Below are positions 27,097 to 32,781 of a DNA stretch of 64,000 nucleotides, in pieces. The notes beneath the pieces are model-generated. The model did not search any database and was not told where the DNA came from. It saw only the letters and a list, made by a program, of their open reading frames with translations. Position numbers and translations under genes: made by a program. How positions within the stretch are numbered: the stretch's first letter is position 1; every line of letters starts with the position of its first letter. The stretch comes from an uncultured Lysobacteraceae bacterium (GTDB lineage Bacteria; Pseudomonadota; Gammaproteobacteria; Xanthomonadales; Xanthomonadaceae), in NCBI GenBank assembly GCA_946480825.1, contig CAMLLG010000010.1, positions 12,728 to 76,727 on the forward strand, read 5' to 3'.

Positions 27097-27137
27097 GACA
27101 CGCCGCTGCGGCGTGTCGGCGGCCGAGGCCGCCTTTT
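27097..27137 (+). terminator. Tandem hairpins with T run after the GFA gene
   Basis: GACACGCCG/CGGCGTGTC (27097-27117) is followed by GGCGGCC-GA-GGCCGCC and TTTT (27118-27137). The T run overlaps the fdhD stop codon on the other strand. Plausible shared terminator for convergent genes. Confidence 0.6.
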
Positions 27138-27933
27138 ACGGGGCGATGCGCTCGCGACCGCTGTAGACGTTCATCCGTCCGTCGCGGGCGAACGCGATCA
27201 GCGTGAGTCCCGCGGCTTCGGCGTGGCGGATCGCCAGATCGGTCGGCGCCGACATCGCGGCGACGATGCGGATGCCCGCGTTCGCCGCCTTGTGCACGAT
27301 CTCGTAGGACGCGCGCGACGTGATCGCGAGGAAGCCGTGTGCGGGGTCGATGGCGGGCGTGGCGCGCAGCATCGCGCCGACCAGTTTGTCGACCGCGTTG
27401 TGCCGGCCCACATCCTCGCGCACCAGCAGCGCATCGCCGGCGACGAAGCCGGCGGCGTGCACGCCGCCGCTGCGCGTGTTCAGCGGTTGCCGCGCGGACA
27501 GCGCGGCGAGGCCCGCATGGATGGCGGCGGCGTCGCGTCGCGGCCCCGCGCCGACCGGCCGTGCCGGTCGCAGCGCGGCGTCGAGACTGGCGGTTCCGCA
27601 CAGGCCGCAGCCGCTGCGGCCTTCGAGCCCGCGCTGCCGCGTCTCCAGCGCATCGAAACGCGCCTGCGGAATCCCGGCGTGCAGCGCGATCCCGCACTCG
27701 CTGCGCACGCGGTCGACCAGTGCGAATTCCGATGGCGACTCGACGATGCCTTCGCACAGCGCGAAGCCGAGCGCGAAGTCTTCCAGATCCTCGGGCGTCG
27801 CCATCATCACCGCGAACGACAGACCGTTGTAGAGCAGGGCGACCGGCGTTTCCTCGATCACCCATTCCTCGCGCGGAACGGCGTCGCCGTCGGCGACATG
27901 CAGCGCTTCGCGCAGGCGCAGGCCCGTGCTCAT
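27136..27933 (-). CDS. fdhD: Formate dehydrogenase accessory sulfurtransferase FdhD
   Basis: 265 residues from ATG 27933, which overlaps the stop of the gene upstream (ATGA). The essential CGLC motif (C109, C112), which relays sulfur from IscS to the molybdenum cofactor of formate dehydrogenase, is intact. Other landmarks: EETPVALLYNG, GVHAAGF, REDVGRHNAVDKLVG and SRASYEIVHKAA. FdhD sulfurates the bis-MGD cofactor; its client here is surely the YdeP-type oxidoreductase two genes upstream in the same operon. Confidence 0.95.
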   Translation of the reverse strand: MSTGLRLREALHVADGDAVPREEWVIEETPVALLYNGLSFAVMMATPEDLEDFALGFALCEGIVESPSEFALVDRVRSECGIALHAGIPQARFDALETRQRGLEGRSGCGLCGTASLDAALRPARPVGAGPRRDAAAIHAGLAALSARQPLNTRSGGVHAAGFVAGDALLVREDVGRHNAVDKLVGAMLRATPAIDPAHGFLAITSRASYEIVHKAANAGIRIVAAMSAPTDLAIRHAEAAGLTLIAFARDGRMNVYSGRERIAP

Positions 27934-28208
27934 GCCGCCGCGCCCGGCAGGTCGCCGTCGCACAGCGCGCGGCCGCGCGCGGTCAGGCGCAGCAACGTCC
28001 GCGCGCCGTCGGCCTGCGCTTCTGACTGGCGCTCGACATGGCGTTCGACCAGATCCAGACCGCCGAACGCCGGATCATCGCCCAGCGCGACCAGCAGGCG
28101 ATGCAGTTCGCTCGCGCCGATCCCCAGCCGTTTCGCCGCGCGCGGCATCGATACATCGCCGTTCTCCGCGAGCAGGCGGAGCAGGGCGAGGGCAGGATCC
28201 TCGCTCAT
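27930..28208 (-). CDS. Small winged-helix-like protein of the formate dehydrogenase operon
   Basis: 92 residues from ATG 28208 (MSEDPALALLRLLAENGDVS). MPRAAKRLGIGASELHRLLVAL looks like a helix-turn-helix, followed by a wing-like stretch and LRLTARGRALC, the usual end of a wHTH domain. Small proteins of this kind sit between the oxidoreductase and fdhD in related genomes, as I recall. It may regulate the operon or assist assembly. It starts within a 17-bp tandem duplication, overlaps fdhD by ATGA and is preceded by a 6-codon mini-ORF. Confidence 0.8.
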   Translation of the reverse strand: MSEDPALALLRLLAENGDVSMPRAAKRLGIGASELHRLLVALGDDPAFGGLDLVERHVERQSEAQADGARTLLRLTARGRALCDGDLPGAAA

Positions 28209-28229
28209 GTCGCGTCCTCGCTCATGTCG
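28198..28229. repeat. 17-bp tandem duplication at the gene junction
   Basis: TCCTCGCTCATGTCG occurs at 28198-28212 and again at 28215-28229, period 17. Each copy holds a start codon on the minus strand (28208 and 28225). The upstream copy opens a mini-ORF MSEDAT whose TGA overlaps the true ATG. Confidence 0.9.
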
Positions 28230-30567
28230 AGCCGGTGCGGCGGCGCAGGCGCACCGGAATCGATTTCGACGCCGGCGTGCGCGCGCGCTCGGCGTGATGG
28301 TCCAGCGGCACCAGCGCATTGGTTTCCGGAAAATACGCGGCGAGGCAGCCGGCGGGGATGTCGTATTCGACCAGCCTGAAATCCGGCGCCACGCGTTCGC
28401 CGTCGTGCCACACCGACACCAGATCGACATGCTCGCCGTCGGCGAAGCCCTGCGCGTCGAGATCGGCGCGCGCGATGAAACAGACCCGGCGCAGCCCGTG
28501 CACGCCGCGATAGCGGTCGTCGTTGCCGTAGACGGTGGTGTTGTACTGGTCGTGCGAGCGCACGGTCATCAATCGTAGGAGGGGCTTCAGCCCCGATGGA
28601 TTCATTCGCGACGTCATCGGGGCTGAAGCCCCTCCTGCAGGGTTAGTGTCCACCAGCGCATGCGCGAAGAACCGCGCCTTGCCCGAGCGCGTCGGGAACA
28701 CCCGCTCGCGACACGGGTGATGCAGATGGAACCCGCCGGGATGGCGCACGCGCGCGTTGAAGTCTTCGAAGCCGGGAATCACCCGCGCGATGCGGTCTCG
28801 GATGCGGTCGTAGTCCTCGATCATCGACAGCCACGGAATATTGCTGTCCGGCAAGGTCGCCGCTGCCAGCCGGGCGACGATCGCCGGTTCCGACAGCAGC
28901 ATGCGCGAGGCCGGCGCGTTCATGCCCGAGGACAGATGCACCATGCTCATCGAATCCTCCACCGTCACCGCCTGCAGGCCGTCGGCCTGCTGGTCGATCT
29001 CGGTGCGGCCGAGGCAGGGCAGGATCAGCGCCTCGCGGCCGTGCACCACGTGCGAACGATTGAGTTTGGTGCTGACCTGCACGGTCAGCGCGCAGTTGCG
29101 CAGCGCGGCGTGGGTCAGCGCGGTGTCGGGCGTGGCCGCGGCGAAATTGCCGCCCATGGCGAAGAACACCTTGCCGCGGCCGTCGCGCATCGCCTCGATC
29201 GCGGCGATGGTGTCGAAGCCGTCCGCGCGCGGCGGCGCGAAACCGAATTCGGCACCTAGCCGGTCGAGGAACGCGGGCGACGGCTTTTCGTGGATGCCCA
29301 TCGTGCGGTCGCCCTGCACGTTGGAATGGCCGCGCACCGGGCAGGGGCCGGCGCCCGGTTTGCCGATGTTGCCGCGGAGCAGCAGCAGGCCGAGGAACGT
29401 CTGGATGGTGGCGACGCTGCGCCGGTGCTGGGTGATGCCCATGCCCCAGCACAGGATCGTGGCCCGGCTGTCGAGATAGACCTGCGCGGCCTGTTCGATC
29501 TGCGTGCGATCGAGGCCGGATTCGCGTTCGATGTCGGCCCATGCGGTGTCGCGGACGGCGTCGGCGAAGTCGTCGTAGCCCTGGGTGTTTGCGACGATGA
29601 AGGCGCGGTCCAGCGCTTCGCCCGCGTGCGCTTCGGACGGTTCGTCTTTGGCATCGGCGTGCGCGATCACGACCTTGGCGATGCCCAGCGCCACCGCGAG
29701 GTCGCCACCGATCTTCGGCTGGAAATAATGCGAGGCGATCGCGGTGGAACCGCCGCCCAGCATCTCCGCCGGCGACTGCGGATCGGTGAAGCGCTCCAGC
29801 CCGCGTTCGCGCAGCGGGTTGAAGACCACGATGCGACAGCCGCGTTTCGCCGCGCGCCGCAGTTCGCCGAGCATCCGCGGATGATTGGTGCCCGGGTTCT
29901 GGCCGAACACGAAGATCGCATCGGCGCGCTCGAAATCGTCCAGCGTCACCGAGCCCTTGCCGCTGCCGATCTGTTCGGTCATCGCCACGCCCGAGGGCTC
30001 GTGGCACATGTTCGAGCAGTCGGGCAGGTTGTTGGTGCCGTAGGCGCGCACGAACGACTGGTACAGGAACGCGGCCTCGTTCGAGGTGCGCCCGGAGGTG
30101 TAGAAGATCGCTTCGTCGGGCGAGGCGAGGGCATTCAGCGCGGCGGCGATCTTCGCGAACGCCGCGTCCCAGTCGATCGGCACGTAGCGGTCGCTGCCGG
30201 CGTCGTAGACCATCGGTTCGGTCAGCCGGCCCTGCGCTTCGAGGAATTCGTCGGTTTGTTGCGCCAGCCATGCGACCGGATGTTCGGCGAAGAACGCGGG
30301 GGTCAGCCGCTTGCCGGTCGATTCGTTGGCGACCGCCTTCACCCCGTTCTCGCAGAACTCGAAGGTCGAGTGCGGGTTGCGGTCCGGCCAGGCACAGCCG
30401 GGGCAGTCGAAACCGGTGGGCTGGTTGGTGCGCAGCAGAGTGCCGGGGCCGCGCAGCACCGCATCCTGTCGGCGCAGCGCCTGCCAGGACGCCTTCAGGG
30501 CATCCCATCCGCCGGCGGGCTTGTCGTAGGGCCGGACCGGGGCCTCGTCGTCGCGGTGTTCTGACAT
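28222..30567 (-). CDS. FdhF/YdeP-type molybdopterin oxidoreductase with in-frame REP insertion
   Basis: 781 residues from ATG 30567. It matches the 'formate dehydrogenase alpha-like, YdeP' group: PGCAWPDRNP near 40-60, NNLPDCSNMCHEPSGV (Cys ligand region), GQNPGTNHPRM, GRTSNEAAFLYQ, PVRGHSNVQGDRTMG, and a C-terminal molydop_binding domain (RLMTVRSHDQYNTTVYG). It should oxidise formate or a similar one-carbon substrate using bis-MGD, with FdhD as maturation partner. E. coli YdeP is, as I recall, 759 residues; here residues about 643-665 are encoded by a 66-bp REP doublet that preserves the frame, exactly accounting for the extra 22. The insertion lies in a linker just before the C-terminal cofactor-binding domain. 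It may still be active. Confidence 0.9.
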   Translation of the reverse strand: MSEHRDDEAPVRPYDKPAGGWDALKASWQALRRQDAVLRGPGTLLRTNQPTGFDCPGCAWPDRNPHSTFEFCENGVKAVANESTGKRLTPAFFAEHPVAWLAQQTDEFLEAQGRLTEPMVYDAGSDRYVPIDWDAAFAKIAAALNALASPDEAIFYTSGRTSNEAAFLYQSFVRAYGTNNLPDCSNMCHEPSGVAMTEQIGSGKGSVTLDDFERADAIFVFGQNPGTNHPRMLGELRRAAKRGCRIVVFNPLRERGLERFTDPQSPAEMLGGGSTAIASHYFQPKIGGDLAVALGIAKVVIAHADAKDEPSEAHAGEALDRAFIVANTQGYDDFADAVRDTAWADIERESGLDRTQIEQAAQVYLDSRATILCWGMGITQHRRSVATIQTFLGLLLLRGNIGKPGAGPCPVRGHSNVQGDRTMGIHEKPSPAFLDRLGAEFGFAPPRADGFDTIAAIEAMRDGRGKVFFAMGGNFAAATPDTALTHAALRNCALTVQVSTKLNRSHVVHGREALILPCLGRTEIDQQADGLQAVTVEDSMSMVHLSSGMNAPASRMLLSEPAIVARLAAATLPDSNIPWLSMIEDYDRIRDRIARVIPGFEDFNARVRHPGGFHLHHPCRERVFPTRSGKARFFAHALVDTNPAGGASAPMTSRMNPSGLKPLLRLMTVRSHDQYNTTVYGNDDRYRGVHGLRRVCFIARADLDAQGFADGEHVDLVSVWHDGERVAPDFRLVEYDIPAGCLAAYFPETNALVPLDHHAERARTPASKSIPVRLRRRTGST
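28575..28640. repeat. REP doublet inside the YdeP-type gene
   Basis: GTAGGAGGGGCTTCAGCCCC and GGGGCTGAAGCCCCTCCTGC face each other over about 20 bases; total 66 bp, a multiple of three, with no in-frame stop in the minus reading. Same GTAG base and TTCAG loop as the intergenic REPs at 15696 and 51425. Confidence 0.9.
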
Positions 30568-30735
30568 GCCGGCATGCTAACGCAGGCCGCCCCGGCGATG
30601 GGCCGCGGTGATGGGCCACGGCGCCTGCCCGCCGGCGCTGGACGCCGGAAAGGCCGCCAGCGTAGATTGTCGGCTTGGCCCCATCGGAAGTCGGGCCGGC
30701 CCTTTGTCGCCCGAAACCCACGAAGCAGATCCGTT

Positions 30736-32781
30736 TTGTCCGAAGCCACCGCCACGCTCGATGTCGCCCTGGACCACGCCTCCCGCCTGCTCGGCAGCGA
30801 TCCCGAGCTGGCCGGCCAGCAGGCCGCCGAAATTCTGCAGGTGGTGGACGGGCATCCCGTCGCGCTGATGATCCTCGGGATTTCGCATCGGCTCGGCGGC
30901 CGTTTCGAACGCGCGATCGAGCTGCTCGGCCCGTTGACCGGTTCGGCGCCGAACCTGCCGCGGGTGCATTACGAATACGCGATGGCGCTGGCGCGGACCG
31001 GTCGCGCCGACGAGGCCATCGCCTCCCTGCAACGATCGCTTGCGCTCAATGCCGGTCTGCCGCAGGTCTGGCTGGCGCTGGCCGATCTGCAGCGCGCCGT
31101 CGGCCGTTCGACCGAAGCCGATGCCGCCTATGCCGGGTATGTCCGCAATTCGGTGCGCGACCCCAACCTGCTGCAGGCGGCCGATGCCCTCAACGCCAAT
31201 CGCCTGCCCGAAGCCGAGCGCCTGCTGCGCGACTGGCTGAAGCAGCATCCCACCGATGTGGTCGCGATCCGCATGCTCGGCGAGCTGGCGGTGCGCGTCG
31301 GCCGTACCGCCGAAGCGCTGCATCTGTTCGAACGTTGTCTGGAGCTGGCGCCGGGATTCCGCGAGGCGCGCCAGCATTACGCGCTGATGCTGCATCGCGA
31401 CCAGCAGTCGCAGAAAGCGCTGGAACAGCTCGATCGGATGCTGGACGACGATCCGGCCAATCCCGGTGCGCGCACGCTCAAGGCCGCGGTGCTGTGCCGT
31501 CTCGGCGAATATGCGCAGGGCATCGGACTGTACGATGCGCTGGTGCGCGAATTCCCGCGCAACGCGCGGCTGTGGATGAGCTACGGCCACGCGCTGAAGA
31601 CCGAAGGCCGGCAGGCCGAGGCGATCGCCGCGTATCGCAACTGCGTGCGCGAAGAGCCGGGATTCGGCGAGGCCTGGTGGAGTCTGGCCAATCTGAAGAC
31701 CCTCCGCTTCGACGACGCCGACATCGCGGCGATGCGCGCGCAGCTGCAGCGCGAGGATCTCGAAACCGAGCACCGTCTGCATTTCGAATTCAGCCTCGGC
31801 AAGGCGCTGGAAGACCGCGCCGAATACGCCGACTCCTTCGCGCATTACGCCGAAGGCAATCGCCTGCGCGTGGAGATGGTGCCGTATCGCGCGGGCGATA
31901 CCAGCGCCCGCGTCGCCCAGTCGAAACGCGTCTATACCGCCTCGTTCTTCGCCGAACGCGCCGGTTGCGGCGATCCCGCGCCCGATCCGATCTTCATCGT
32001 CGGCCTGCCGCGCTCCGGTTCCACCCTGCTGGAGCAGATCCTGTCGAGCCATTCCGCGGTAGAAGGCACGATGGAATTGCCGGAAATCATCTCGATGACC
32101 CGCGCGCTGCGCCGCGGCGCGGAAGGCGCGTCGAATTACCACGAGGTGCTGGCGGAGCTGCCGCTTGAGACGTTCGCGGAACTCGGCCGTCAATTTCTCG
32201 ACCGCACGCGCGTGCAGCGCAAGACCGGCGCGCCGCTGTTCATCGACAAGATGCCGAACAACTTCCTGCATCTGGGTCTGATCCACCTGATGCTGCCGAA
32301 CGCGAAGATCGTCGATGCGCGCCGGCATCCGATGGGTTGCTGCTTCTCCGGCTTCAAGCAGCATTTCGCGCGCGGCCAGAGTTTCAGCTACCGCCTCGAC
32401 GACATCGGCCGCTACTACCACGACTACGTCGAACTGATGGCGCACTTCGACGCGGTGTTCGCCGACATCGGTCTGCCGGGTCGCGTGCATCGCGTGATCT
32501 ACGAGCGCATGGTCGAAGACACCGAGGCCGAAGTCCGGCGCCTGCTCGATTACTGCGGCCTGCCGTTCGAAGCGGGTTGCCTGCGTTTCTTCGAGAACGA
32601 CCGCCCGGTGCGCACCGCCAGTTCCGAACAGGTCCGGCGCCCGATCAACCGCGACGGCATGGACCAGTGGCGGCATTACGCGCCCTGGCTCGGCCCGCTG
32701 GAGGCCGCGCTGGGGCCGGTGCTGCAGGCGTATCCCGATGTGCCCGCGTTTCCGTCCGACGGAGGGCCGCAGACCGTCTGA
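30736..32781 (+). CDS. TPR-repeat sulfotransferase
   Basis: 681 residues if TTG 30736 (LSEATATLDVALDHASRLLG) is the start; this is the first plausible start after a leader that reads as arginine-rich junk, but no strong ribosome site is visible, so the start is uncertain. Eight or more TPR-like helices fill about 1-400 (e.g. LPQVWLALADLQRAVGRSTE). A sulfotransferase domain follows: PAPS 5'-phosphosulfate loop IFIVGLPRSGSTLLEQIL (about 418-435), 3'-phosphate region RHPMGCCFSGFKQHF, and YERMVEDTEAEV. The pairing with a downstream TonB receptor is common in xanthomonads and sphingomonads. Acceptor unknown. Confidence 0.85.
   Translation: MSEATATLDVALDHASRLLGSDPELAGQQAAEILQVVDGHPVALMILGISHRLGGRFERAIELLGPLTGSAPNLPRVHYEYAMALARTGRADEAIASLQRSLALNAGLPQVWLALADLQRAVGRSTEADAAYAGYVRNSVRDPNLLQAADALNANRLPEAERLLRDWLKQHPTDVVAIRMLGELAVRVGRTAEALHLFERCLELAPGFREARQHYALMLHRDQQSQKALEQLDRMLDDDPANPGARTLKAAVLCRLGEYAQGIGLYDALVREFPRNARLWMSYGHALKTEGRQAEAIAAYRNCVREEPGFGEAWWSLANLKTLRFDDADIAAMRAQLQREDLETEHRLHFEFSLGKALEDRAEYADSFAHYAEGNRLRVEMVPYRAGDTSARVAQSKRVYTASFFAERAGCGDPAPDPIFIVGLPRSGSTLLEQILSSHSAVEGTMELPEIISMTRALRRGAEGASNYHEVLAELPLETFAELGRQFLDRTRVQRKTGAPLFIDKMPNNFLHLGLIHLMLPNAKIVDARRHPMGCCFSGFKQHFARGQSFSYRLDDIGRYYHDYVELMAHFDAVFADIGLPGRVHRVIYERMVEDTEAEVRRLLDYCGLPFEAGCLRFFENDRPVRTASSEQVRRPINRDGMDQWRHYAPWLGPLEAALGPVLQAYPDVPAFPSDGGPQTV

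Follow-up and report, generated by a model that had tools for sequence, protein, structure and literature searches.

A GTAG-type REP doublet in frame within a linker of an FdhF/YdeP-family oxidoreductase gene, and its states in related genomes

The 64-kb stretch of DNA analysed here (the window) carries a GTAG-type REP doublet inside an open reading frame. How did such a palindrome come to lie within a gene, is it translated, and is it there for a reason? A sequence-only reading of the window had described a complete GTAG REP pair of 66 bp, lying in frame and without a stop at about codons 643-665. Frame and position were confirmed, as the 781-codon ORF is intact and the element encodes residues ~644-664 (Table 1). 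It is indeed a pair with perfect 22-nt arms, although its size is 64 bp and only one of its heads is GTAG.

Table 1. Features of the oxidoreductase locus in window coordinates.
Feature	Position	Strand	Basis or remark
FdhF/YdeP-family molybdopterin oxidoreductase gene	28222..30567	-	781-codon intact, stop-free ORF (ORF list and translation); TIGR01701; Pfam; fold
fdhD/narQ-family gene	27136..27963	-	PF02634, 1.1e-70; open frame, downstream of the oxidoreductase gene on the same strand
ORF between the oxidoreductase and fdhD/narQ genes	27930..28430	-	weak IclR-type helix-turn-helix, PF09339, 1.2e-4, residues 80-116
GTAG-type REP pair (REPIN-like inverted doublet)	28575..28638	-	in-frame reading at ~residues 644-664: AGGASAPMTSRMNPSGLKPLL
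First arm	28577..28598	.	22 nt; inverted repeat I1; GTAG head at 28575-28578 on the + strand
Spacer between arms	28599..28614	.	16 nt; by eye unlike the spacer of the closest relative, L081
Second arm	28615..28636	.	22 nt, 100% complementary to the first; head GCAG at 28635-28638 on the - strand
Length-variable disordered linker before the C-terminal dinucleotide-binding domain	28573..28653	-	codons 639-665; alignments of relatives and pLDDT

The consensus GTAGGAGSGGCTTCAGCCSCGA matched at 28575-28596 on the plus strand without mismatch and at 28617-28638 on the minus strand with one, GCAG for GTAG. No third match was found in the 64-kb window with up to three mismatches, and 100 shuffles gave a mean of 0.01. 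With GTAG at one end of the palindrome and GCAG at the other, the element belongs to the GTAG type, and its fully complementary arms across the 16-nt gap make it an inverted doublet of stem-loop units. It lies within an open gene and is thus not extragenic. Extragenic location is typical of REPs and not defining, because intragenic GTAG REPs have already been described (PMC3733652). Two of the three reading frames through the arms are open; the gene uses the GASAP frame, the RRGFSP frame being open as well. Codons 646 and 658 of the ORF mark the starts of the two cores, both in frame 0.

The host gene had been called YdeP-type. This stands at the level of the FdhF/YdeP subfamily (TIGR01701, 963.5 bits against a cut-off of 582.15) and fails for the YdeP equivalog (NF007406, 838.2 bits against a cut-off of 1473). 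Pfam placed the molybdopterin domain (PF00384) at residues 114-496 and the dinucleotide-binding domain (PF01568) at residues 664-770, and the best Foldseek matches of an AlphaFold2 model were formate dehydrogenases. The small ORF between this gene and the fdhD/narQ gene probably has its true start further inside. On the other side, a TPR-sulfotransferase gene (30574-32781, plus strand, from the ORF list) is divergent from the oxidoreductase gene, with the two starts 7 bp apart. This leaves almost no room for a promoter at 30567-30574, and the true starts of both genes may lie further inside.

The AlphaFold2 model (44 sequences, mean pLDDT 85.4) was confident over most of both domains. Residues 642-658 fell below a pLDDT of 50, flanked by blocks at 91 and 86, and the REP site is therefore predicted to be a disordered joint ahead of the C-terminal cofactor domain. 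The earlier suggestion that the REP sits at a tolerant site just before this domain agrees with the predicted disorder and with the variability of the joint in relatives. Purifying selection was evident on both sides of the element. By Nei-Gojobori counts, dN/dS against L081 was 0.13 before the REP (637 codons) and 0.19 after it (116 codons), and the values against the other eight relatives were between 0.14 and 0.35. Since the codons past the REP are under purifying selection, the REP-encoded segment is very likely translated.

We searched 395 genomes of the family and fetched 30 loci, among which orthologues were 75-93% identical. The nearest genus, that of the closest orthologue, included 11 genomes. 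Ten of these had a close orthologue, two of them on cut contigs, and the eleventh (G096) had only a 51% homologue. The ten orthologues differed in the state of the joint. Both REP arms were found in L081, L083 and L084, the pair in L083 being decayed; a single arm was found in L082 and L085, and a remnant, recognised by eye, in L088. No REP was present in the ydeP joint of L086, L087, L111 and L112. Such presence, decay and absence across nearest-genus genomes fits the claim that a REP of mobile type has added protein sequence in frame. Outside the nearest genus, the corresponding site of L095, from a genus represented by one genome, was occupied in the same frame by a perfect doublet of another subtype, GTAGGAGCGGCTTTAGCCGCGA.

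The element is not a simple 22-residue insertion relative to orthologues, as had been supposed. In L086, the closest REP-free orthologue, the joint has 16 residues, against 27 in the window, and a different sequence. As it is 11 residues shorter, and not 21 or 22, and unlike in sequence, flanking sequence has been lost or replaced. In the nearest clade, the joints without a REP end in KPLLQ or QPLLQ and may be what deletions left behind instead of true empty sites. A clean insertion with a recoverable empty site and a target duplication was considered and rejected. No exact pre-insertion site was found in L081-L088 compared with the window, and no target duplication can therefore be claimed. 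The excess of 22 residues over E. coli YdeP (781 against 759) had been equated with the insert. That argument fails, because linker length varies throughout the family and L086 is only 11 residues shorter. Nor is total length usable as evidence of insertion, as REP-free relatives range from 761 to 778 aa (774-778 aa in P0034, P0037, P0040 and P0042; 761-769 aa in P0044, P0045, P0049 and P0051).

When the window was compared with L081 by eye, the arms differed at few positions and the spacer had no recognisable similarity. Paired changes kept the pairing: TCA to TCG in one arm is matched by CTG to CCG in the other, replacing Leu with Pro. Arms changing together beside a dissimilar spacer are not what plain neutral decay would lead one to expect. 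The pattern suggests correction of one arm by the other or by further copies, or retention as a hairpin. The doublet could accordingly be kept for a hairpin role in mRNA or DNA (pausing, RNA stability or protein binding), its translation being a side effect, and the very stable fold of the doublet as RNA (-51.4 kcal/mol, z -8.5 against shuffles) agrees with this as the kept pairing does. However, pairing would equally persist if one arm corrected the other through the hairpin, or if other copies acted as conversion donors. Close relatives manage with a single arm (L082, L085), with a pair that has decayed (L083) or without the element (L086, L087), the frame is open and under purifying selection, and there was no Rfam match at the gathering threshold in 28000-29200. 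We consider a hairpin role unlikely.

The joint was then compared at the protein level. In the best 80 of at least 595 loci (54-67% identity), the joint between GKAxF and RSHDQYNTT varied in length and sequence. A survey of joint classes took the window protein and the best 120 of 8000 scored homologues; P0106 was dropped, as its anchor motif was missing, leaving 120 rows. Classes were assigned by motif and partly set by hand (P0019, P0062, P0067 and P0070 were labelled by hand), and five ambiguous rows (P0056, P0060, P0085, P0087 and P0119) were left unlabelled. The 115 labelled joints comprised 40 with a REP translation (GGASAP...SGLKPLL, one arm thereof, or a subtype), 9 PSPRxRGE-like, 4 of the LSPR type (LSPRGWGEG...LLPQGEG or similar), a single one of the VIPANAGI type (VIPANAGI...DPAIRRDDE) and 61 of class none, which takes in some longer joints without a recognised repeat (e.g. 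P0061, P0068 and P0072). The expectation that relatives would lack the segment was not borne out, since, by our own labels, a REP or other palindrome translation occupies the joint in 37 of the 41 best-scoring homologues (P0002-P0042).

A quick tree from which the joint was excluded requires at least 20 changes of class (REP versus the rest 16, PSPR 5, LSPR 3); these counts are approximate because 43 of the 117 inner branches were open, and they cannot separate gain from loss. The PSPRxRGE class corresponds to a reading of a dispersed palindrome, CCTCTCCCCGCATGCGGGGAGAGG, in four of the six copies fetched (L194, L195, L196 and L198). The IPANAGI and LSPR classes we take to be palindrome translations too. 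In ydeP joints, these three classes are known from the proteins alone. Genome G081 (L107, L194) has 35 matches to the CCTCTCCCCGCATGCGGGGAGAGG palindrome with up to two mismatches, yet its oxidoreductase joint is plain.

Counted from FPT, joint length ranged from 29 residues, without insert, to 130 in P0058, which has two PSPR copies; that of the window is 46. In P0046, P0053, P0058, P0059 and P0063 the joint has 74-130 residues from FPT and seemingly holds two palindrome translations in tandem, the enzyme being otherwise normal. An element like that of the window, in the same position, was also found in P0002, a 92%-identical protein cluster with 36 member sequences. An artefact of assembly or annotation, or a pseudogene, is conceivable in that hairpins can mislead assembly. 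Given this cluster, the similar elements at the same place in several other genomes, the open frame and the purifying selection on both sides, we regard it as extremely improbable.

The REP is dispersed in the nearest genus. A 16-nt core, GGGGCTTCAGCCCCGA, had 63 matches in seven of the eight nearest-genus genomes searched (0-21 per genome), and its reversed control had none. The core was not found in genome G196 nor in seven genomes outside the nearest genus; allowing one mismatch, the genomes of seven relatives, G001-G007, had none either (0 of 7). A 19-nt REP pattern gave 0-51 copies per genome in the 11 nearest-genus genomes, again with zero in the reversed control. The window itself has one pair. 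Regular, BIME-like REP arrays were observed at G020:C1:1213379-1214111 (~119-nt spacing) and G247:C86:1892-2108 (~99-nt spacing).

Grouping matches within 1 kb reduced the 63 core matches to 47 places, and DNA was fetched for the 43 outside ydeP. Forty covering ORFs were tested with Pfam, 20 of them also with NCBIfam, and ORFs of 156 aa or less were mostly left out. An in-frame REP within a Pfam-confirmed gene was found at 13 of the 43 places, and at 17 of the 47 when ydeP (four genomes) is included; the other 30 places were not counted as intragenic. The hosts besides ydeP were metG (three genomes), glyS, the gene for the PDH E2 subunit and minC (two each), and valS, icmF, lpd and a fused ABC ATPase (one each). 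Several of these cases are shared by descent, and they represent eight different genes. The view that REPs are almost always intergenic, which made the oxidoreductase case look striking on its own, is hard to maintain in these seven genomes, and intragenic REPs were published in 2013 (PMC3733652).

Fifteen of the 17 intragenic REPs lie between annotated domains, ydeP being judged by the domain borders of the window protein. The two exceptions are valS, with the REP inside the catalytic-domain match, and icmF, where the domain borders leave the position ambiguous. All 13 first arms in the confirmed non-ydeP genes use the GASAP frame. The RRGFSP frame is used in an oppC ORF (L186), which was outside the intragenic count. 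Also covered by an ORF, yet uncounted, were a NUDIX ORF with the REP before the domain (L161), dapD (L163), where the REP is upstream of the domain as it is in oppC, an ORF with ACPS and GidB domains (L181), and those tested ORFs that Pfam did not match. We considered whether the intragenic subtype is the genome's own. The ydeP copy and the sampled copies agree in G020 (gtggga) and in G163, G122 and G144 (gtagga or gcagga), and G068 has both gtagga and gtggga copies with ttggga in ydeP. The idea was only weakly borne out, G068 being mixed and many of the sampled copies being themselves intragenic.

The joints of metG, glyS and PDH E2 were compared in 14 genomes, the 11 of the nearest genus and G015, G242 and G085. 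The 11 metG matches comprised six doublets, one decayed element and four joints without any. For glyS, eight of 13 matches had doublets of differing subtype and five had none, as judged by eye. PDH E2, also with 13 matches and partly judged by eye, had a REP-derived element in four, another palindrome in three and none in six. The other palindromes in E2 were a CCCTCCCCC...GGGGGAGGG element in L236 and, in L234 and L235, a CCCTCTCCCGCCGGGAGAGGG element; the joints of L234 and L235 also contain an arm resembling a REP, as judged by eye. In L234 and L235, the CCTCTCCCC...GGGGAGAGG palindrome also has one copy ~1.1 kb upstream of the E2 gene; it is dispersed in these genomes, with 12 places in G211 and 10 in G235 (up to two mismatches). 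In glyS (L217-L229, 13 genomes), ~residues 505-575 before the REP site appeared hypervariable even between close relatives; in five members of the genus the best match ends at 504-517, and the next 60-100 residues seem unrelated between conserved flanks. One of these sequences, L219 (glyS of G247), has one in-frame TGA, which may reflect an assembly error or a pseudogene.

Unlike palindromes in one E2 joint, seen at the DNA level, point to tolerance of the joint rather than to the target preference of one element. Site-specific targeting of a single sequence is not favoured on the same grounds, as other palindrome classes share the joint in ydeP (protein level) and in PDH E2 (DNA level). A third reading would make the insertions adaptive: longer flexible joints would be selected, and the REP system would act as supplier. 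Different elements have repeatedly come to occupy the same joints of ydeP, metG, glyS and PDH E2, and the frame in use specifies Gly, Ala, Ser and Pro, both as such selection would have it. Nevertheless, the oxidoreductase joints of many REP-free relatives are much shorter, at 29-35 residues from FPT where the window has 46, joints vary freely in both sequence and length, and the elements decay. Tolerance and mutational supply can explain the recurrence with no need for a benefit, and we find selection for longer joints very unlikely.

As candidates for the mobiliser, Y1 transposases (PF01797) were detected in 11 of 12 genomes. A REP-flanked Y1 transposase, the REPtron arrangement, was present in G020 and G068 of the nearest genus and in G015 of another genus. 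In the 64-kb window, tblastn with five sequences from RAYT (REP-associated tyrosine transposase) regions returned nothing better than E 0.04. No Y1 match was obtained in genome G196; the 19-nt pattern finds one REP there, and its ydeP, metG, glyS and E2 joints are REP-free. In this one genome, the lack of a Y1 match and the REP-free joints go together, which is no more than suggestive. Genome G096 has no 19-nt match, yet its glyS doublet is kept.

Stenotrophomonas maltophilia belongs to the same bacterial family as Lysobacter. In the REPtron Sm of S. maltophilia, the transposase TnpA-REP (RAYT) cleaves a REP substrate at a CT dinucleotide in vitro (PMC8266576). The GTAG REPs described there share the GTAG head and the perfect stem with ours; they were isolated REPs studied in vitro, whereas ours lie inside genes and the Y1 transposases of the nearest genus are known from sequence. 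GTAG and CGTC REPs inside ORFs, in frame and with tRNA synthetases among the hosts, were reported by Di Nocera, De Gregorio and Rocco (2013, PMC3733652), who found recB of X. campestris and that of X. oryzae to carry different REPs in roughly the same position and proposed that intragenic REPs form flexible linkers or loops. Our elements resemble theirs as GTAG-tagged palindromes inside ORFs, again with tRNA synthetase hosts. The word Lysobacter is absent from the main text of that paper. Compared with what it describes, the present data differ in following the orthologous joints of several genes through one genus, with differing subtypes, decay and empty sites, in showing that a joint can also take palindromes of an unrelated class, and in adding a structure model.

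Rickettsia palindromic elements (RPE), the classic example, are likewise in-frame palindromes in many unrelated genes (PMC10969869, PMC3733652), a trait matched here by in-frame REPs in nine different nearest-genus genes. RPE are put at ~150 bp in a 2024 review (PMC10969869), and RPE-4 and RPE-6 of R. conorii carry a CGTC tag (PMC3733652); the window element, in contrast, is a doublet with a GTAG tag and measures 64 bp. It acts in the manner of an RPE without belonging to that class. The coding palindromes of nematomorph mitochondria are also perfect inverted repeats in protein-coding genes; they are mitochondrial and longer, reaching 284 bp, and the opening of the abstract makes no link to REPs (PMC6649704). 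The RepRanger paper still describes REPs as seldom in coding regions (PMC12306157). Among the literature matches listed, which mostly exclude subscription journals, no paper title concerned intragenic REPs in Lysobacter or its kin. The kind of element is already known. What deserves to be followed up is how rich this case is, that such elements recur in orthologous joints of several housekeeping enzymes, and that other palindromes occupy the same joints.

We consider it quite likely that a GTAG REP doublet entered the FdhF/YdeP linker in a Lysobacter-like ancestor and is read through as ~21 tolerated disordered residues. The doublet, of a kind thought to be mobilised by RAYT, would have entered the linker in the ancestor of this lineage and landed in the frame for small flexible residues (GGASAP). 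As the arms are open in two of three frames and the frame used encodes such residues, the ribosome would read through and the protein would gain the disordered residues. A joint whose length and sequence hardly matter would accept an insert of this kind, which is presumably neutral. Insertions elsewhere would have been purged and those in linkers kept, and the same filter may have acted on other enzymes of the genus. A bolder version holds that the RAYT-REP system and other palindromes continually rewrite the joints of housekeeping enzymes (MetG, GlyS, PDH E2, MinC and the FDH-like enzyme) in this genus, that their linkers are permanent landing sites in which subtypes replace each other, and that a domesticated transposase is a source of linker diversity from which the host gains. 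This we offer as speculation and think it rather unlikely.

The name "repetitive extragenic palindrome" can mislead, since about one third of the sampled places of one subtype in seven genomes are coding. The affected genes are natural examples of housekeeping-enzyme joints that tolerate about 20 extra residues or more. Their orthologues, which include every state from the full pair through one arm, a decayed element and another subtype to none, trace a route from a non-autonomous palindrome to protein sequence, and the nearest-genus genomes are a place where this conversion can be counted and tested gene by gene.
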